Source: Flavobacteriaceae bacterium (lineage in GTDB: Bacteria > Bacteroidota > Bacteroidia > Flavobacteriales > Flavobacteriaceae). Taken from it: 10,746 bases of DNA. Position 1 is the stretch's first letter. Every line of letters begins with the position of its first letter. The notes beneath the pieces are model-generated. The model ran no database searches, was not told where the DNA came from, and saw only the letters and a program-made list of their open reading frames with translations. The stretch spans positions 1 to 10,746 of the forward strand of contig CANHNG010000027.1 in the NCBI GenBank assembly GCA_947461915.1, in the 5' to 3' direction. Position numbers and translations under genes: made by a program. Shown in pieces: positions 1,663-9,809 of this stretch.

Positions 1663-4600
1663 ATGAAACCTACATTTTTTTTTCTTTCCTTTTTGCTCCT
1701 GTCGTTTGGCGTTTATTCCCAAACAAATAAGTATCGCTTGAATAATTTATCGACTGTTGATGGGCTGTCACAAAGTTCCGTAATTGCAATTCATCAGGAC
1801 GCAATTGGACAAATGTGGTTTGGCACTAGGGACGGTCTTAACAGATATGATGGTAGTAGATTCACTGTTTACCGAAACAACCCAAGGGATACAACGTCTA
1901 TAAGCAATAATGATATTCTGTCTGTTGAAACCGATAAATCTGGTAATATTTGGGTAGGAACTTACAATGGACTCAACTGTTACAATCCGCTCAAAAATGC
2001 TTTTAGGCAATATTTTCATGCTTCAAAAGGGAATTCATTATGTGACAATACGGTATGGACAATAAAGGATATAAAAAATGAGATTTGGATTGGAACCTCA
2101 AGAGGATTGAGTGTTTATAATAAAACCACAAAAAAATTCACTACTCTTTTCCATTATAGCAGAAATAAATTGAGTTTACCCAATAATTTTGTTCTAAGTA
2201 TTTTAGAAACCAAAAGAGGAGAAATCTGGATTGGAACAGCCAAAGGTTTGTGCAGATTAATTGGAAGAAAAAATGGAGTGTTTTCATTTCAACACTATAA
2301 TGACCCAGAAAAAGGAGAAAGCATTTTCGTTCAAAGTATTAAAGAGGATGCCGCAGGTAATTTATGGATTGGTACTAAATCGAGTGGAATTTACAAATAC
2401 CAAGTTGCCACTAAAAAGCTACTTTCACTTTTGGCAAATGGAAAGCAAAACGGAATTGATGCCGATGTTAGGTCAATAGATATAGATCATAAAGGCGTTT
2501 TGTGGGTTGGAGCTTATAACGGAGTTAGTGTAATTCAGCCTAACGGAACGATACAGAAAGTCTATAATAATCCGGATAAAGCAACCAGCACAGGTAAAAT
2601 AAAATCTGTTTTTACGGATAAAAAAGGATCTGTTTGGATTGGGACTTATTATAATGGAATCAATATTTGGGATGTCTCGAATGTCAATTTTACAAATTTG
2701 AATCAATATTCAGGTAAAAAAGCCCTGAGTTTTGATGTCGTGAGTTCAATAGTTACTGACAAAAATAAAAATATTTATTTCGGCACAGAAGGGGGAGGGA
2801 TAACTATTCTGAACAGCAGTACCCAAACCACTAGTTATCTTTATGCCAATAACACTAGTGAATCATCTAGGAATAATATTAAATCGATGTATATCTCGGA
2901 TAATGGCATTTTATGGATTGGTACTCTTTCGGAAGGTTTAGCTGCGTATGACACAAAATCCAAAAGGTTCATCACTGATAATATTTCCCCAGATCTACGA
3001 AAACTGCTCAAGCAATCTGGTGTATATGTAATAAAAAAAGGCAGGAAGAATGATATAATTTGGTTAGGAACATTTGGTAAAGGTTTAATTCGATATGACA
3101 CTACCAATAATACGTATCAAGTTATTGGTAATGATAATTATTCAGATAATTTCTTAACTAGCGATAGGATTAGGACGCTCCTGATTGATAAAAAGGATTG
3201 TATTTGGATAGGGACCCAAAGCGGTCTCAACCAAATAAATTTAAGTGATTTTGATAATAACAATTATCATATCAACCATTTTTTCTTTGACAACAAAGTG
3301 CTTTCAGGAGACGACATACTCTCTTTGTTTCAGGATAAAAAAAATAGAATATGGATAGGTACCAAGGCTAAAGGAATGTATTTGTTTAACGGTAAAAATT
3401 TTATCAAAGTCAATATTAATTTAGGAAATTCATCAGTTACATCGATTCATTCCATTTCAGAGGATTCTAATAATAATTTGTGGCTAAGTACAAATTACGG
3501 CATAGTTAAATACAAACCTTCCCAAAATTTAGTTACTATTTATGATCAAAAAGATGGTTTGGTCAGCAATGAATTTAACGACAATGCTAATTTACAATTA
3601 AATTCACATTTATTTTATTATGGAGGACCTTTAGGTGTGACTTATTTTGACTCTAATCAAATTGCTGTAAATAGGTATTCTCCTAAAGTAATTTTGACGG
3701 ATTTTAAGGTTAAAAATGAGTCGGTAGGTATTGATGGTGAGCAGGAAATTTTAGAAAAAAGTATCAGCTACACCAAATCACTCTCTTTGAATTATGATAA
3801 TGCAAATTTCTCTATAAATTTTGCAATACCCAATTTTGTTAATTCTACAAATAATAAATATGTGTATCGATTAGTTGGATTAGATGATAATTGGACAACT
3901 ACCACAAACACTGAAGTGGCCTATACCATACAAAGACCTGGCACCTATCATTTTGAGGTTAAGGGATCAAATAATGATGGAGTTTGGAATAAAATCCCAA
4001 CTACCTTAGAAATCATTATTGAACCGGCACCTTGGAGAAGCGGTTGGGCATTTTTATTTTACTTTCTAATAGTAGGAGTAGCATTGTATGGTTTGATTTC
4101 GATTATCAGAACAAAGGAAAATCTTAAGCAAGAGTTAGAATTAGAACAGGTGGAGAGTAAAATAAACAAAGAGAATACCCTTGCCAAATTACAATTTTTT
4201 ACTAATATTTCTCATGAGTTTAGAACGCCCTTAACTCTAATTTTAGGTCCATTACAGCAGATACTTTCGGATTATAACGGGAGTAATGAAATGTACAAGA
4301 AATTATTGGTAATTGAGAATAGTGCAAATCATCTATTGAGTTTAATTAATCGACTGATGGATTTCAGGAAGTTTGAAAACAACCAATTTATTTTGGAGTC
4401 AGCTGAAGGAAATATTGTAAAATTCTTAAAAGAAATATATTTGTCCTTTACTGAATATGCAAAAGATGGGGGATATACATTTAACTTTAATACTTCCGAT
4501 GAAGAAATTTTAGTGTATTATGACAGATATAAATTGGAACGTGTTTTTTTTAATTTACTATCTAATGCTTTCAGATATACTCCAAAAGGAGGTGTAATTT

Positions 4601-5769
4601 CGGTAAATATAAAAAAGGAAGCTAGCGACATTATTATTGAAGTTGAAGATTCAGGAGTTGGAATAGCCCAAGAAAATATAGACAAGATTTTCGAACTTTT
4701 TTTCGAAATCCCTACACACAAAAATGCACAAGTTAATTATAATAAAGGTTCTGGTATTGGGCTTTCCATTGTCAAAAATATAGTTTTACTTCACAAAGGA
4801 ACTATCGATGTTAAAAATAAAAATGACAAAGGTGTTATTTTTACCGTTACCCTTCCACTAGGTAAAAAACATCTTGCCCCGGAAGAAATTATTTCAGATT
4901 TCAAAATCAGTGATGATGTGAGTCAATACATCTCTCAATTAGATATCGTAGAAACAATAGATACTGATGATGTTACTGATTTGGTTGTTCAGGAAGATAA
5001 ATATACTGTTTTGATAGTGGAGGACCATAAGGTTTTGCGTTCCTTTATGAAAAACCTCCTCAGAAAGGAATATAATGTTATTGAAGCCGAAAACGGGAAA
5101 AAAGGACTTAAAAAGGCGCTTGAACATATTCCCGATTTAATCATTAGTGATGTTGTAATGCCTGAAATGGTGGGAACGGAGCTGTGTGCAAAAATTAAAG
5201 AAAATATAAAAACCAGTCATATCCCCGTGATATTATTAACATCAAGATCTTCTTTAATTTATAAAATCGAAGGATTGGAAAATGGAGCCGATGATTATAT
5301 TAGCAAACCATTTAACTTGAAAGAGTTCAAACTGAGAATTAAAAATTTATTGGATTCTACACAAAGATTAAAAGCAAAATTTTCAAGCGATGATGCTTTT
5401 TCTCCAGAGGAACTTACCGTTTCATCGTTAGACGAACAGTTGCTTAAAAAAGCCTTTAAAGTGGTAGAAGAAAATATAGGCAATGAACAATTTGATATTC
5501 CTTTTTTCAGTTCCGAGCTTGGCGTTAGCCGTACCATGTTATTTACAAAAATAAAAGCATGGACAAATCTGACCCCAAATGATTTTGTACAAGAAATAAG
5601 GATGAAACGTGCCGCCCAGTTATTAGAACAGAATAAGTTGAACATTTCCCAAATAAGTTATAAAGTAGGGTTTAATAACCCTAAGTATTTTAGTAAATGT
5701 TTTCAAAAGAAGTTCGGCGAGACGCCTTCTCAATATGCAAATAAATTTTCCAAAGATTTATTAGGTTAG
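1663..5769 (+). CDS. Hybrid two-component system sensor/regulator (HTCS), PUL transcription activator
   Basis: One-piece sensor kinase and transcription factor of 1368 residues, the usual HTCS size. Order: signal peptide with likely cleavage after VYS (residue 19); periplasmic sensor of about 13-14 Reg_prop propeller blades marked by WxGT motifs from W52 to W607, consistent with two seven-bladed propellers; Y_Y_Y domain about 725-785; one membrane segment about 796-816; a short charged coiled linker; HisKA with phospho-acceptor H851 in ISHEFRTP; HATPase with N-box N964/N968, G1 DSGVGI (996-1001) and G2 GSGIGL (1029-1034); receiver about 1113-1230 with acidic pair E1120/D1121, phospho-acceptor D1163, T1193 and K1215; AraC-type double helix-turn-helix about 1257-1365. 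All key residues are present, so it should be active. HTCS proteins bind oligosaccharides released from the PUL's target glycan and activate the neighbouring enzyme genes. The probable target is the promoter just downstream (5784-5817). The ATG at 1663 directly precedes the signal peptide, which supports this start. The ligand cannot be read from sequence. Confidence 0.97.
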   Translation: MKPTFFFLSFLLLSFGVYSQTNKYRLNNLSTVDGLSQSSVIAIHQDAIGQMWFGTRDGLNRYDGSRFTVYRNNPRDTTSISNNDILSVETDKSGNIWVGTYNGLNCYNPLKNAFRQYFHASKGNSLCDNTVWTIKDIKNEIWIGTSRGLSVYNKTTKKFTTLFHYSRNKLSLPNNFVLSILETKRGEIWIGTAKGLCRLIGRKNGVFSFQHYNDPEKGESIFVQSIKEDAAGNLWIGTKSSGIYKYQVATKKLLSLLANGKQNGIDADVRSIDIDHKGVLWVGAYNGVSVIQPNGTIQKVYNNPDKATSTGKIKSVFTDKKGSVWIGTYYNGINIWDVSNVNFTNLNQYSGKKALSFDVVSSIVTDKNKNIYFGTEGGGITILNSSTQTTSYLYANNTSESSRNNIKSMYISDNGILWIGTLSEGLAAYDTKSKRFITDNISPDLRKLLKQSGVYVIKKGRKNDIIWLGTFGKGLIRYDTTNNTYQVIGNDNYSDNFLTSDRIRTLLIDKKDCIWIGTQSGLNQINLSDFDNNNYHINHFFFDNKVLSGDDILSLFQDKKNRIWIGTKAKGMYLFNGKNFIKVNINLGNSSVTSIHSISEDSNNNLWLSTNYGIVKYKPSQNLVTIYDQKDGLVSNEFNDNANLQLNSHLFYYGGPLGVTYFDSNQIAVNRYSPKVILTDFKVKNESVGIDGEQEILEKSISYTKSLSLNYDNANFSINFAIPNFVNSTNNKYVYRLVGLDDNWTTTTNTEVAYTIQRPGTYHFEVKGSNNDGVWNKIPTTLEIIIEPAPWRSGWAFLFYFLIVGVALYGLISIIRTKENLKQELELEQVESKINKENTLAKLQFFTNISHEFRTPLTLILGPLQQILSDYNGSNEMYKKLLVIENSANHLLSLINRLMDFRKFENNQFILESAEGNIVKFLKEIYLSFTEYAKDGGYTFNFNTSDEEILVYYDRYKLERVFFNLLSNAFRYTPKGGVISVNIKKEASDIIIEVEDSGVGIAQENIDKIFELFFEIPTHKNAQVNYNKGSGIGLSIVKNIVLLHKGTIDVKNKNDKGVIFTVTLPLGKKHLAPEEIISDFKISDDVSQYISQLDIVETIDTDDVTDLVVQEDKYTVLIVEDHKVLRSFMKNLLRKEYNVIEAENGKKGLKKALEHIPDLIISDVVMPEMVGTELCAKIKENIKTSHIPVILLTSRSSLIYKIEGLENGADDYISKPFNLKEFKLRIKNLLDSTQRLKAKFSSDDAFSPEELTVSSLDEQLLKKAFKVVEENIGNEQFDIPFFSSELGVSRTMLFTKIKAWTNLTPNDFVQEIRMKRAAQLLEQNKLNISQISYKVGFNNPKYFSKCFQKKFGETPSQYANKFSKDLLG

Positions 5770-5783
5770 ATAAAAATAATCGT

Positions 5784-5817
5784 TTTGGATTTAAAACAGG
5801 TAAGTATTGTATTTTTG
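5784..5817 (+). promoter_or_regulatory. Candidate promoter of the enzyme operon: -33 TTTG (5784-5787) and -7 TATTTTTG (5810-5817)
   Basis: TATTTTTG fits TAnnTTTG exactly, and a TTTG lies 22 nt upstream, within the loose -33 to -7 spacing used by Bacteroidota. It is 14 nt after the HTCS stop and 51 nt before the first microprotein ATG. No comparable box is visible between the second microprotein and GH88, so this is the best candidate for driving both microproteins and GH88-GH2. The -33 box sits in a weak GTTTT/AAAAC inverted repeat (5782-5786 and 5793-5797), a possible but unproven HTCS contact site. Confidence 0.55.
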
Positions 5818-5868
5818 AATACCCTATTTTGAATTTTTGTACCATAATTCATTTTTAAATTTGTCAAC

Positions 5869-5961
5869 ATGAAAAAGAGCAAATTGATATATGGTATTCT
5901 CCAGATTCTCCTTGTGTTTGTAATACTCACGTTGACTCTTTTTGTAATATATTTAAATTAG
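5869..5961 (+). CDS. Single-span membrane microprotein 1 (30 aa)
   Basis: Unrecognised small protein: ATG at 5869, 30 codons, TAG at 5959. It begins MKKSKLIYG, continues with a hydrophobic run of about 19 residues (ILQILLVFVILTLTLFVIY), and ends L-N. The three N-terminal lysines predict the N-terminus inside and the C-terminus in the periplasm (positive-inside rule). It is too hydrophobic at its end, and lacks any cleavage site, to be a signal-peptide fragment. The case for a real gene is the next frame, 13 nt downstream: it has exactly the same length, the same architecture and 12 of 30 identical residues, mostly with different codons. It lies behind a good promoter and ahead of GH88, so it is probably the first gene of the enzyme operon. 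No Shine-Dalgarno is apparent, as is normal in this phylum. Function unknown; a membrane accessory of the PUL, a leader peptide or a small hydrophobic toxin are all possible. Confidence 0.65.
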   Translation: MKKSKLIYGILQILLVFVILTLTLFVIYLN

Positions 5962-5974
5962 AATAAAATCTATT

Positions 5975-6067
5975 ATGAAGCTTTTAAAATTTAAAAATAT
6001 CGTTCTTCAAGTTTACCTAGTGTTGTTATTGATGACTATAAGTTTGCTTGTTTTGTACTTTAATTAA
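5975..6067 (+). CDS. Single-span membrane microprotein 2 (30 aa), paralogue of microprotein 1
   Basis: Unrecognised small protein: ATG at 5975, 30 codons, TAA at 6065. The basic start MKLLKFKN is followed by a hydrophobic run (IVLQVYLVLLLMTISLLVLY) and a terminal F-N. Aligned without gaps to the preceding microprotein it shares M1, K2, K5, L11, Q12, L15, V16, T21, L24, V26, Y28 and N30. Of the 11 shared residues after Met, eight (K2, L11, Q12, L15, T21, L24, V26, Y28) use different synonymous codons in the two genes. That points to selection on the peptide rather than a recent DNA duplication. The conserved L-Q at the start of the span, mid-span T and C-terminal Y-x-N look like family hallmarks. 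The stop codon lies inside a 15-bp palindrome, and GH88 starts 68 nt downstream. Function unknown. Confidence 0.65.
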   Translation: MKLLKFKNIVLQVYLVLLLMTISLLVLYFN

Positions 6068-6077
6068 GTTACTTAAT
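6063..6077. repeat. 15-bp palindrome ATTAAGT-T-ACTTAAT over the microprotein 2 stop codon
   Basis: Perfect 7-bp arms (6063-6069 and 6071-6077) around a single central T. With a 1-nt centre it cannot form a useful RNA hairpin, so if functional it is more likely a binding site for a dimeric protein. The rest of the microprotein-GH88 spacer (6078-6135) is AT-rich, with no -7 box and no terminator that I can see. A related half, TTAATTACTTA, follows near 6095. Confidence 0.35.
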
Positions 6078-6135
6078 AAAAAATAGTTTCTTTAATTACT
6101 TACTCCATAAATTACCTGCCTTTTAAAAAAACAAT

Positions 6136-7320
6136 ATGATCCGATTTAAATATTTAACTACTTTGCTTATTATGGCTTTTCTTTTCGGAGCTTGCAAGTC
6201 ACTGAATCATTCTAAAGCACAAACCAATCAATCAAATGTGACTAATCTTCTCGAAAAGCGATACCAAACTCTTCTCGAATATCCAATAGATTCTGTTAGT
6301 TTTCCTCGAAGTATGGACCTGAAAACGGGGGTTATTAAAAAAGTACCCTCTAAAGACTGGACTAGTGGTTTTTTTGTTGGAAATCTTTGGCAATTGTATA
6401 CACTTACTGGTGATAAAAGATATAAGGAAAGAGCAGCCCTTTGGAATACTTATATAGAAAAAGAAAAATTCAATAACAAAACCCATGATATGGGATTTAA
6501 AGTTTTTTGCAGTTTCGGAAAAGGACTAGAAGTTGAAGAGAACAAAAAATACAAAGAAATTATAGTTAAAAGTGCGCAAACACTTTGCACCCGATTCAAT
6601 AAAACAGTTGGTTCTATTCGCTCTTGGGATTTTAATAAAGACATTTGGGAGTTTCCGGTCATTATGGACAACATGATGAATCTGGAATTGCTTTTCGAAG
6701 CATCGAAAATATCAGGGGACAACAAATATAAAAACATTGCTATTCAGCATGCCAATACAACCTTAAAAAATCATTTTAGAAAAGACGACAGTTGTTACCA
6801 TGTTCTGGTATATGATACCATTGCCGGAAGAGTGAAAAATAAAATAACCTATCAAGGATTTAACGATGATTCTTCATGGGCTAGGGGGCAGTCATGGGCG
6901 GTATATGGTTTTACCATGTCTTACCGCTACACTCATGACAAAGCCTATTTGAATCGTGCCGAAGCCACTGCCCAGTTCTTTATCAACCATAAAAATATGC
7001 CTGAAGACGGAATTCCTTATTGGGATTTTAATGATACTAGTATCCCTAACGCTCCTAGAGATGTTTCGGCCGCTACAGTTATGGCTTCCGCACTTATTGA
7101 ATTGTATACCATCACAAAAAATGAAGCCTATTTGAACTATTCAAATAAAGTAATCAATACCTTAAGTTCAGAAAAGTACATTTTAGGCGAATCAGTAAAT
7201 GGTCCTTTTATATTTGACCACAGCACTGGGAATTGGCCAAAGAAAGACGAAATGGATCAGCCTATTATTTACGCGGATTACTATTTTTTAGAAACCTTAT
7301 TAAGAAAAAAATCACTTTAA
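6136..7320 (+). CDS. GH88 unsaturated glucuronyl hydrolase, lipoprotein
   Basis: Hydrolyses the 4,5-unsaturated uronic acid left at the non-reducing end of oligosaccharides after polysaccharide-lyase cleavage, by hydrating the vinyl ether group. The protein has 394 residues, normal for GH88. An N-terminal lipoprotein signal with lipobox FGAC (C20) suggests membrane anchoring. The (alpha/alpha)6-barrel motifs are present: D118 in HDMGF and D178 in VIMDNMMN. They sit 60 residues apart and match the two catalytic aspartates known in the Bacillus enzyme (D88 and D149, 61 apart). Also present are WARGQSWAVYGF (248-259), DGIPYWDFND, and RDVSAATVMASALIEL near the C-terminus. These patterns fit GH88 better than GH105. 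GH2 starts 5 nt after its stop, indicating co-transcription and probably sequential action on the same oligosaccharide. The ATG at 6136 directly precedes the signal peptide and is the sensible start. Exact sugar preference is not predictable. Confidence 0.95.
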   Translation: MIRFKYLTTLLIMAFLFGACKSLNHSKAQTNQSNVTNLLEKRYQTLLEYPIDSVSFPRSMDLKTGVIKKVPSKDWTSGFFVGNLWQLYTLTGDKRYKERAALWNTYIEKEKFNNKTHDMGFKVFCSFGKGLEVEENKKYKEIIVKSAQTLCTRFNKTVGSIRSWDFNKDIWEFPVIMDNMMNLELLFEASKISGDNKYKNIAIQHANTTLKNHFRKDDSCYHVLVYDTIAGRVKNKITYQGFNDDSSWARGQSWAVYGFTMSYRYTHDKAYLNRAEATAQFFINHKNMPEDGIPYWDFNDTSIPNAPRDVSAATVMASALIELYTITKNEAYLNYSNKVINTLSSEKYILGESVNGPFIFDHSTGNWPKKDEMDQPIIYADYYFLETLLRKKSL

Positions 7321-7325
7321 TTTTC

Positions 7326-9749
7326 ATGAGAAATATACAGTTATTCAAAAGTATAATATTTGCCGCATTGCTAACCAATTTGGGTTTTATTAATGCGCAA
7401 ACTATTAAGAATACCGAAAGAACCAAAGTAAATATAAATAGCAATTGGTCTTATATAGATAATAGCACAAAAAGCTTAAATGAGGTAAATAAATCCACCA
7501 ATTGGGTTACGTTAAACTTGCCTCACACATGGAATAGTCAGGATGCCACTGATCTGGATCCGGGATATAGAAGAAGCGCTAGTTGGTATAAAAAGAATAT
7601 TAATTTTTCTGAAATTGATACAAATAAATTATACTCTTTATATTTCGAAGGATCTAATGTTACCACAAATGTGTATGTCAATGGCAAAGAAGCTGGTGGA
7701 CATATAGGAGGTTATATAGGCTTTACCATAGATATAACAAATTTCATCACCACTGGCGATAATGAAATTTTAGTGCGTGTGGACAATAGTTTTAATATAG
7801 AAATAATTCCTTCCCAAAAAAGCGATTTTACTATTTATGGAGGTATTACAAGAGACGTATGGTTGGAGTCTACGTTAAAAAACCATATCGATAATTTTAA
7901 AATCACTACACCCGCAGTTTCTGCCAAAAGCGCCTCTTTGAGTTTGCTAACGACAGTCAAAAACATAAAAGCAGGCAGTGATTTGTCCTTAAAAGCGGTG
8001 CTGAAAAACCCAAAAGGGAAAGTCGTGGCTACTAAGACTGTTGCGGTTGCCGGAGAGGAAACAAAGATAGTATTTGATCCAATCAAAAATCCAGAATTAT
8101 GGGATACTAAAACACCTAATTTATACTCCGTAAGCGTTTCGCTTCTTGAAAAAGGGGTGACTTATGATAAAATGGATGACAAAGTTGGATTCCGTTGGTT
8201 TGAGTTTAAAGATTTTGGTCCTTTTTATCTTAACGGAAAAAGACTTTTGCTTCGCGGTACACACAGGCACGAAGAGCAAGCAGGTGTAGGAGCGGCCATG
8301 TCTAATGAACAACATAGAGTTGATATGGAATCCATCAAGAATATGGGTGCAAATTTTGTGCGTTTAGCCCATTATCCACAAGATCCTGAGATTTACAAAG
8401 CCTGTGACGAATTGGGTTTATTGGTTTGGGACGAATTGCCATGGTGTCGTGGTGGAGTTGGTAATGAAGTTTGGCAAACCAATTCAAAGAATATGCTTAC
8501 TGAAATAATTAACCAAAATTACAATCATCCTTCTATTATCTTATGGTCCATGGGCAACGAAATGGGTTGGTTACCTGATTTTCCGGGTGGCGACAATACC
8601 GAAAAAATGAATTCCTTTTTAACTGAAATTAATGACATAGCCCATAAATTAGATCCTAGCCGAAAAACTACTCTTCGAAAATATGAAGAGGGATCAAAAA
8701 TCGTTGATGTTTTTTCTCCTTCAATATGGTCTGGTTGGTATTCAGGAAGTTATAAAAGCTACAAAAAAGCGTTAGACACCTACAAGAAAAAATACCCTCA
8801 TTTTATACATGCAGAGTTTGGTGGCGATAGCCAAGTAGGGCGTCATAGTGAAAATCCAATTACTGGAGAGGGAGCCATAAAATCAGAGGGTTGGGAAGAA
8901 GCTATTGTTCAAACTAAAGTGGCTAATATTGCACAAATAGGGGATTGGAGTGAGAGTTATATTGTGGATCTTTTCGATTGGCATCTGCATGTTTCCGAAA
9001 ATGACCCCGATTTTGTTGGAAATGTTCAATGGGCATTCAAAGATTTCGCGACACCATTGCGTCCGGAGGACGACATTCCTTACATGAACCAAAAAGGACT
9101 AGTGGATAGAAACGGGAATCCTAAAGATGCCTATTATGTGTTTAAAAGTTATTGGAGCGAGGTTCCATTTACCTATATAGAATCTCACACTTGGACCGAT
9201 CGTCAAGGTCCAAAAGATGTTCCCCGTGTTCTTAGTGTATACAGTAATTGTCCTAAAGTGACACTCTACCATAACGGGAAGTCTTTGGGTAGCAAACAAA
9301 GGGATATTAAAAGTTTCCCAGCCTGTGGCCTAACCTGGGATGTTAACTTCGCCGAAGGAAAAAACACCTTGATAGCTATTGGTGAAACGAAAGAAGGAAA
9401 AACCGTAACCGATACCATATCCGTCAATTATCGATTCAACAAGAATGAAGCGGCAGAGGATTTGAAATTATCTGCCGAAAAAATGAAAAACGGGAATTAC
9501 CTCGTTACCGCAATCGCTGTGGATAAAAACAATTTACGTTGCCTTGATTACGAACAACGCGTTTATTTTCAATGTGTATCAGGAGGGAAAACAATGAAAA
9601 ATCAGGGCACTCCTATTGGAAGCGAGTCCATTAAAATGTCAAACGGTAAAGCTTCTATCGAAGTGGTTCCGGACTCCGCTAACGGACCAATTGAAATGAC
9701 GGTATTGAACCAAAGTTTTAAAGGAGAATACTTAAAAATACAGCAATAG
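7326..9749 (+). CDS. GH2 beta-glycosidase (beta-galactosidase/beta-glucuronidase type), secreted
   Basis: Retaining exo-beta-glycosidase of 807 residues. The frame is open further upstream inside GH88, but the ATG at 7326 is chosen because it begins a clear Sec signal peptide (MRNIQLFKSIIFAALL..., cleavage near INA-QT). It lacks a lipobox, so a periplasmic enzyme is likely. Domains: jelly-roll sugar-binding domain about 45-195; Ig-like domain about 200-290; TIM barrel about 295-600; DUF4982-like Ig domain about 625-700 (VYSNCPKVTLYHNGKSLG); and a last Ig-like domain to the end. Catalytic residues follow the family pattern: acid/base E412 in WSMGNEMGW and nucleophile E497 in HAEFGGD. FVRLAHYPQDP and LLVWDELPW are typical GH2 barrel motifs. 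The family contains beta-galactosidases, beta-glucuronidases, beta-mannosidases and others, and sequence reading alone does not choose among them. Its position directly behind GH88 suggests that it removes the sugar exposed after the unsaturated uronate is taken off, or works on side chains. Confidence 0.95.
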   Translation: MRNIQLFKSIIFAALLTNLGFINAQTIKNTERTKVNINSNWSYIDNSTKSLNEVNKSTNWVTLNLPHTWNSQDATDLDPGYRRSASWYKKNINFSEIDTNKLYSLYFEGSNVTTNVYVNGKEAGGHIGGYIGFTIDITNFITTGDNEILVRVDNSFNIEIIPSQKSDFTIYGGITRDVWLESTLKNHIDNFKITTPAVSAKSASLSLLTTVKNIKAGSDLSLKAVLKNPKGKVVATKTVAVAGEETKIVFDPIKNPELWDTKTPNLYSVSVSLLEKGVTYDKMDDKVGFRWFEFKDFGPFYLNGKRLLLRGTHRHEEQAGVGAAMSNEQHRVDMESIKNMGANFVRLAHYPQDPEIYKACDELGLLVWDELPWCRGGVGNEVWQTNSKNMLTEIINQNYNHPSIILWSMGNEMGWLPDFPGGDNTEKMNSFLTEINDIAHKLDPSRKTTLRKYEEGSKIVDVFSPSIWSGWYSGSYKSYKKALDTYKKKYPHFIHAEFGGDSQVGRHSENPITGEGAIKSEGWEEAIVQTKVANIAQIGDWSESYIVDLFDWHLHVSENDPDFVGNVQWAFKDFATPLRPEDDIPYMNQKGLVDRNGNPKDAYYVFKSYWSEVPFTYIESHTWTDRQGPKDVPRVLSVYSNCPKVTLYHNGKSLGSKQRDIKSFPACGLTWDVNFAEGKNTLIAIGETKEGKTVTDTISVNYRFNKNEAAEDLKLSAEKMKNGNYLVTAIAVDKNNLRCLDYEQRVYFQCVSGGKTMKNQGTPIGSESIKMSNGKASIEVVPDSANGPIEMTVLNQSFKGEYLKIQQ

Positions 9750-9781: not shown

Positions 9782-9809
9782 GGTGTAATTTGGTAAAACG
9801 AATTACACC
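9782..9809 (+). other. Intercistronic hairpin / inverted repeat GGTGTAATT...AATTACACC
   Basis: Arms 9782-9790 and 9801-9809 are perfectly complementary. A T-G wobble (9791/9800) and a G-C pair (9792/9799) extend the stem to 11 bp with a six-base loop GTAAAA. It lies in the 106-nt spacer between GH2 and the lyase gene. Only three T residues follow the stem, so it is a poor rho-independent terminator. It may be an mRNA processing or stability element, an attenuator that lowers lyase expression, or an operator for a separate lyase promoter. No TAnnTTTG box is visible between it and the lyase ATG. The rest of the spacer holds an ATAGGGT (9821-9827), the reverse complement of the ACCCTAT seen at both promoters. 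Confidence 0.5.

Follow-up and report, generated by a model that had tools for sequence, protein, structure and literature searches.

The question raised by this locus is whether the two frames of 30 codons lying between an HTCS gene and the following enzyme genes encode real small proteins and, if so, what these would do. The analysed stretch of 10,746 nt from a Flavobacteriaceae bacterium, hereafter the window, forms part of a polysaccharide utilisation locus, as seen from its ORF listing and Pfam matches. Its genes are arranged in the order DUF4955/pectate-lyase-like protein, HTCS, the two short frames (ORF1 and ORF2), GH88, GH2 and alginate-lyase-domain protein (Table 1). HTCSs are a main regulator class of glycan use in Bacteroidota. 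Judged by comparative sequence analysis, ORF1 is a conserved real gene, its existence and the selection acting on it being near certain. Its product is predicted to represent a previously undescribed and unannotated family of single-pass inner-membrane proteins of about 30 residues in Flavobacteriaceae, which appears to be inherited together with a clade of HTCSs. This inheritance and the position at the start of the message suggest that the microprotein is probably a partner or a brake of the sensor.

Table 1. Features of the window, with positions counted from its first nucleotide
Feature	Position	Strand	Basis
HTCS	1663..5769	+	Pfam: Reg_prop propeller, Y_Y_Y, HisKA, HATPase, receiver, AraC-type HTH
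Probable HTCS transmembrane helix and candidate contact site, aa 795-818	4045..4116	+	HTCS alignment
Operator-like element GTATTTTTGAATACCCTATTTTGAATTTTT, putative HTCS binding site	5809..5838	+	Pattern search
Sigma-ABfr -7 box TAAATTTG, predicted TSS 5868-5869	5856..5863	+	Sequence
ORF1, 30-aa single-pass membrane microprotein with Lys-rich N-terminus (predicted N-in)	5869..5961	+	Homologues, purifying selection, AF2
ORF2, diverged tandem copy of ORF1	5975..6067	+	Profile score; decayed counterpart in L082
GH88-family protein, next operon gene	6136..7320	+	Pfam PF07470
GH2-type glycosidase, same operon	7326..9749	+	Pfam PF02836/PF02837/PF00703, scanned from 7323; ATG from the ORF at 7233-9749
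Alginate_lyase-domain protein, cut by the contig end	9856..10746	+	Pfam PF05426, scanned from 9847; ATG from the ORF at 9790

Both frames were found with 13 nt between them, and a recount confirmed that they have 12 of 30 residues in common without gaps. Eight of the 11 common residues after the Met are encoded by different codons, only K5, V16 and N30 using the same one, and the two frames are identical at 52 of 90 nt. The claim of the first-pass annotation that this pattern reflects selection on the peptide and not a DNA repeat was borne out by a dN/dS of about 0.15 and by profile and shuffle scores. Against a profile of 63 homologues from which both window ORFs were excluded, ORF1 scored 23.5 bits and ORF2 17.9 bits, and none of 5000 shuffled peptides reached the real score in either case when the N-terminus was shuffled separately from the remainder. 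The likeness of the two peptides is therefore more than chance. As A+T-rich DNA abounds in short ORFs, chance frames in the spacer had to be considered, but only 5 of 1760 shuffled 300-nt spacers hold a Lys-containing hydrophobic ORF of 26 to 36 codons. The homologues in many genera and the substitution pattern described below also contradict this explanation, which is already refuted for ORF1 and retains next to no probability.

Frames of 28 to 33 residues similar to ORF1 were found in relatives downstream of the orthologous HTCS by a search anchored on GH88. A profile built from seven peptides was searched against 199 genomes of the genus and yielded 37 matches, distributed over 36 genomes, with an E-value of 2.7e-6 or better, the next one standing at 4.5e-4. 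An HTCS orthologue, counted as present at an E-value of 1e-85 or better, occurs in 45 of these 199 genomes, and all 36 genomes with a strong microprotein match belong to them. Adding a copy with a GTG start (G002), a genome with one microprotein behind each of two HTCSs (G066), a divergent microprotein (G025, locus L233) and one located about 1.1 kb downstream of the HTCS without a -7 box at its start (G181), the microprotein follows the orthologous HTCS in 40 of the 45 genomes. The other five (G035, G086, G137, G143 and G194) form one Flavobacterium clade in which no microprotein was found and the HTCS, the operator and the box are kept, indicating that the microprotein is dispensable. Among the 154 genus genomes without the HTCS orthologue, no match was detected at an E-value of 0.001 or better; the best one, in G001 with an E-value of 0.00125, covers part of the profile only. 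In a family-wide search of 397 genomes with a 33-sequence profile, 19 genomes had matches at an E-value of 0.01 or better. All five inspected matches from other genera (L065-L069) lie downstream of the HTCS, as does the match in G366, judged from its coordinates, the remaining matches being mostly weak and partial. Homologues are present in 22 of 42 named GH88-anchored loci, from genera including Lutibacter, Aureibaculum, Maribacter, Hyunsoonleella and a Winogradskyella, and in 15 of 28 HTCS loci of other genera.

The direction of selection on the ORF1 peptide is plain from these alignments and points to purifying selection. For 36 main-clade sequences, the pooled pN was 0.13 and the pooled pS 0.49, and the Jukes-Cantor dN/dS over 514 close pairs was 0.15, which is a description rather than a test because the pairs are non-independent. 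Divergence at codon positions 1, 2 and 3 was 0.21, 0.07 and 0.33, which is the pattern 2<1<3, and the corresponding ratios were 0.67 and 1.42 when the frame was displaced by one or two bases. Weighted conservation across the 63 homologues marks K2, E/Q12, L15, I19, S/G23-L24, I27, Y28 and F/L29, and no significant helical periodicity of conservation was detected across the span (p 0.13). AF2 models ORF1 as a single helix from residue 2 to 29 with a mean pLDDT of 92.6. The aligned homologues have 28 to 33 amino acids, one hydrophobic span and a Lys-rich start, which agrees with the size of fewer than 50 amino acids, the single helix and the positive N-terminus of small membrane regulators of sensor kinases such as MgrB, and membrane insertion with an N-in topology is inferred from these features. 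The best Pfam match among 33 members was DUF3098, which is weak and was obtained for 11 of the 33 (best E-value 0.0034), and the best NCBIfam match was YniD (E-value 0.0047, one member).

ORF2 has a different history. It lacks a -7 box of its own, and at an E-value of 3e-6 or better only the window genome has two matches in the genus search, the other 35 matching genomes having one each. In the sister locus L082, the spacer contains a decayed counterpart of ORF2, which lacks a start codon and is interrupted by a stop in frame. Its alignment score of 53 was reached by none of 5000 shuffles (mean 26.3, maximum 52), and the DNA score of the spacer alone lies above the 95% level and was exceeded by some of 500 shuffles. 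The interruption in relatives that the first-pass annotation had named as evidence against the two frames was thus found for ORF2 and not for ORF1. ORF2 is best read as a lineage-specific duplicate of ORF1, which is probably dispensable and may be on its way to loss. Of the proposed two-subunit membrane accessory, the two-subunit part was therefore given up, as ORF2 is lineage-specific and decayed in a relative, and an accessory assisting the HTCS is retained as the best reading.

The association with the HTCS clade was compared with 17 paralogous HTCS loci of three genomes, none of which has a leaderless frame of the microprotein kind. Without the promoter rule, a hydrophobic ORF of 26 to 36 codons that includes Lys was seen within 900 nt at one of these loci; it lies 474 nt away (L145) and is unlike the microprotein family. 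All four orthologous loci in this control carry the microprotein, at 95 to 99 nt. Ten genomes carry at least two clade HTCSs, and in four of them (G066, G269, G535 and G579) distinct microproteins stand behind two clade HTCSs each, G269 having a third HTCS copy without one. In five others (G242, G342, G366, G468 and G570), a microprotein stands behind only one clade HTCS, and none was found in G349, where one of two HTCS copies is unreadable. In this survey, L249, L266, L269 and several loci without a nearby HTCS had no readable long HTCS frame. A divergent HTCS subgroup (L233, L268, L270, L271, L273 and L280) carries a divergent microprotein, in which a motif of a hydrophobic residue followed by Glu was seen. 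Here the nearest -7 box is 45 to 53 nt upstream in L233, L270, L271 and L280, and none is near in L268 and L273. The subgroup thus keeps the peptide far from a box, which indicates that retention concerns the peptide rather than the leaderless geometry.

The synteny also fits another membrane partner. The microprotein might serve a different envelope component or step of the pathway, for instance import across the inner membrane, lipoprotein export or the TonB machinery, and its place beside the HTCS would then merely reflect where the operon begins. Many bacterial microproteins stabilise membrane complexes, and the single-pass membrane nature of the peptide, its position as first gene behind the operator in 18 operator-bearing loci, and the five multi-copy genomes with clade HTCSs lacking a microprotein are in line with this possibility. 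Nevertheless, we consider it less likely than an HTCS partner given that two clade HTCSs each have their own microprotein in four genomes, that the next genes of the window are enzymes by Pfam, and that the cognate SusC is dispensable for retention of the microprotein. The order HTCS, microprotein, SusC, SusD, GH88 and GH2 looks ancestral, and the gene downstream of the microprotein varies, being SusC or GH88. In 12 genomes searched, the cognate SusC was found with a 91% match in G103. In the other 11, it was not found genome-wide, the best matches having 30 to 41%, and the microprotein is kept; several of these assemblies are incomplete, and G042 is a single contig of 99% completeness. Because the microprotein persists without its cognate SusC, SusC is not a required partner, and an accessory of SusC was rejected as a candidate on these grounds. 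The SusC-less order with GH88 directly after the microprotein occurs in the window (5961-6136) and in G002, G044, G026, G138, G028, G106, G126 and G014. KdpF and CydX are small subunits of membrane complexes with about 30 residues and one helix, encoded at one end of their operons. The microprotein resembles them in its length, its single helix and its place at an operon end, but the analysis revealed no large inner-membrane complex to go with it, and it is kept after loss of SusC.

The start of the microprotein gene is closely tied to a promoter element. TAAATTTG is the sole TAHHTTTG on the plus strand of the window with an ATG 2 to 6 nt downstream. Among 67 distinct sequences, the start codon follows TAnnTTTG at 4 nt in 46, at 5 nt in 9 and at 7 nt in 1, and 8 of the 11 remaining sequences have TAnnTTTA at 4 to 5 nt; window ORF2, L120 and L179 are without either box type near the start. 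A box at 4 to 5 nt is accordingly present in 55 of 67 sequences in its strict form and in 63 if a final A is allowed, whereas a strict box at 4 or 5 nt arose by chance in 0.4% of the trials with shuffled upstream DNA. Ten sequences found later, outside the 67, have the box at 4 to 5 nt in five cases (one strict, four ending in A) and the nearest box 45 to 51 nt away in three; none was seen in two. In F. johnsoniae, the distance from the -7 box to the TSS of probable promoters is 4 to 5 nt, and 87% of the predicted leaders are longer than 10 nt (PMC6847099). With this spacing, the AUG of the microprotein is predicted to lie at the 5' end of the mRNA, so that the message should be leaderless in most homologues; in the window, no more than 1 nt would precede it. 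Only a small fraction of the mRNAs in the phylum lack a leader, as judged from the 5.5% described for F. psychrophilum (PMC9723704). The first-pass annotation had placed the best promoter of the window here. A sigma70-type scan of 5400-6400 did not support this: it gave 5 sites compared to 4.2 expected, hence no sigma70-type promoter stands out in this region. The leaderless geometry and the operator are points absent from that annotation.

An operator-like element upstream of the box probably represents the binding site of the HTCS, as its distribution suggests. Searching six genomes with up to two mismatches gave one match in five of them and two in the sixth (G044), and the reversed pattern used as a control gave none in the same six. 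Across the window and the named loci, 25 operator sites were found with up to three mismatches, 22 of which have a -7 box exactly 17 nt downstream. Of these 22 sites, 18 stand before the microprotein and the other 4 before enzyme-type genes whose leaders are ordinary, and operator sites before several genes of a locus appear to form a small regulon of one HTCS. Five microprotein-bearing named loci (L097, L100, L114, L115 and L120) gave no operator match with up to three mismatches, which indicates that the element is diverged in genera further from the window's own. The notion of an HTCS-controlled operon thus stands in part: ORF1 is the first gene and its control by the HTCS is probable from the operator geometry, but the tandem pair as a functional unit was not upheld. 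The same operator with a box 17 nt behind was also seen at L084:3741-3770, L084:19064, L085:3753 and L099:9841, where the genes behind these extra sites belong to the same locus and have ordinary leaders.

That most homologues place the AUG at the predicted TSS and that the next start follows after a short gap, for example 24 nt to SusC in L119, could also be explained by a leader ORF acting in cis. The operon mRNA would then be controlled or localised by translation from its 5'-terminal AUG or by insertion of the nascent chain into the membrane, and the finished peptide would have no function. This is improbable because selection on the amino acids is strong and synonymous change is free. An alignment of 24 leaders showed no conserved RNA structure (8 pairs at -1.85 kcal/mol, none of them compensatory), and no Rfam family matched in the window at gathering thresholds. 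In addition, the same operator and box occur at four further promoters, which drive enzymes and no microprotein, an HTCS subgroup keeps the peptide far from the nearest box, and the downstream gene differs. The sensory leader peptide offered in the first-pass annotation is not supported in the form of a classical attenuating leader, given the missing structure and these four promoters. In F. psychrophilum, leader peptides of attenuated operons are known from amino-acid operons (PMC9723704). The microprotein is comparable to those described there as a short first ORF of its transcript, but differs in its protein-level selection and in lacking a conserved RNA structure. An attenuator leader was also rejected as a candidate, since the conserved alternative structure or terminator expected between the microprotein and the next gene was not seen in the aligned leaders.

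Fst, Ibs and TisB are type I toxins, which are small and hydrophobic, and the microprotein is similar in size and hydrophobicity. Together with its Lys content and the tandem copy in the window, this would fit a hydrophobic toxin of the type I kind that is paired with an antisense RNA. In contrast to such systems, no excess of antisense promoters was found, with TAHHTTTG boxes, the promoter type considered, on the antisense strand of 4 of 67 microprotein loci compared to 15% expected by shuffling and at no shared position, for which reason a type I toxin-antitoxin system was rejected. The fixed place after the HTCS, the dN/dS of 0.15 in one operon slot and the lack of a further strong match in the window genome, which is 81% complete, likewise contradict a toxin, making this reading very improbable.

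The reading we favour, tentatively and at slightly less than even confidence, is that the microprotein acts in trans as a single-pass membrane partner or feedback modulator of the HTCS, following the logic of MgrB without belonging to its family. The HTCS of the window would then be both the regulator and the partner of the ORF1 product. The basis for an interaction, which is inferred, consists of the synteny, the separate copies behind duplicated HTCSs in 4 of 10 genomes and a weak rate signal in the HTCS helix. The active HTCS would bind the operator-like element, and RNA polymerase with sigma-ABfr would start transcription 4 to 5 nt past TAAATTTG. The mRNA would start no more than 1 nt from the AUG, and the microprotein, as the first gene of the operon, would be made by leaderless translation. 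It would then insert into the inner membrane, the Lys-rich end facing the cytoplasm, and act in trans, its most likely target being the transmembrane helix of the neighbouring HTCS. By feedback, it may tune the HTCS, most simply as a brake, comparable to MgrB acting on PhoQ. A more general form of this proposal, which we regard as conceivable though somewhat doubtful, is that a class of HTCS-dedicated transmembrane partners of 30 residues tunes signalling via the sensor helix, leaderless synthesis supplying a brake or co-receptor with the first transcript.

MgrB is an inner-membrane peptide of 47 amino acids and a feedback inhibitor of the PhoQ/PhoP system (PMC2789325). The microprotein resembles it in its small size, its predicted single-pass membrane architecture and its probable control by a sensor system that may also be its target. 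In contrast, the microprotein has 30 residues rather than 47, is predicted to be leaderless and is tied by synteny to a one-protein HTCS, its putative partner, and none of 33 members has a Pfam match to MgrB. A literature search at the title and abstract level found no small-protein partner of an HTCS and no such microprotein.

The candidate contact site was chosen by eye as the hydrophobic stretch C-terminal of the Y_Y_Y domain of the HTCS. Of 88 HTCS frames, eight unlabelled ones were left out (L101, L117, L118, L219, L220, L232, L272 and L279). The 80 labelled frames comprise 78 different sequences, with G025 (L233) scored as microprotein-present and the absent labels of L098 (perhaps a decayed copy) and L260 (rearranged spacer) being doubtful. 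A tree of the 78 full sequences was built with the helix region left out, and substitutions were counted by branch. The microprotein was gained or lost at least nine times on this tree, with the root scored as present by preference. The helix underwent 205 changes on branches with the microprotein and 151 on branches without it, and its rate relative to the whole HTCS is 1.41 times higher in the latter. An equally extreme value was seen in 3.3% of 1344 sliding windows, and the helix ranks third of 56 non-overlapping windows. The slower change of the helix where the microprotein is present is suggestive only as a possible sign of contact. In the Flavobacterium clade without the microprotein, no obvious change of the helix was seen by eye.

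If the microprotein does tune the HTCS, it would add a layer of control to glycan use that is likely missed by gene finders, and the lineages without it would provide ready comparisons. The 5'-terminal AUG predicted across several genera would offer a defined case for the study of leaderless initiation. Two spacers contain further features. In Maribacter algarum, a possible decayed microprotein frame (L098:5187-5416) starts with TTG AAA ACA AAG and adjoins a -7-like box; the N-terminal pattern is retained and the hydrophobic span is lost. In L195 (G091), a long low-complexity run of short GTGAGAATG-like repeats lies between the HTCS and the microprotein promoter, a position at which longer gaps were also seen in other genomes.
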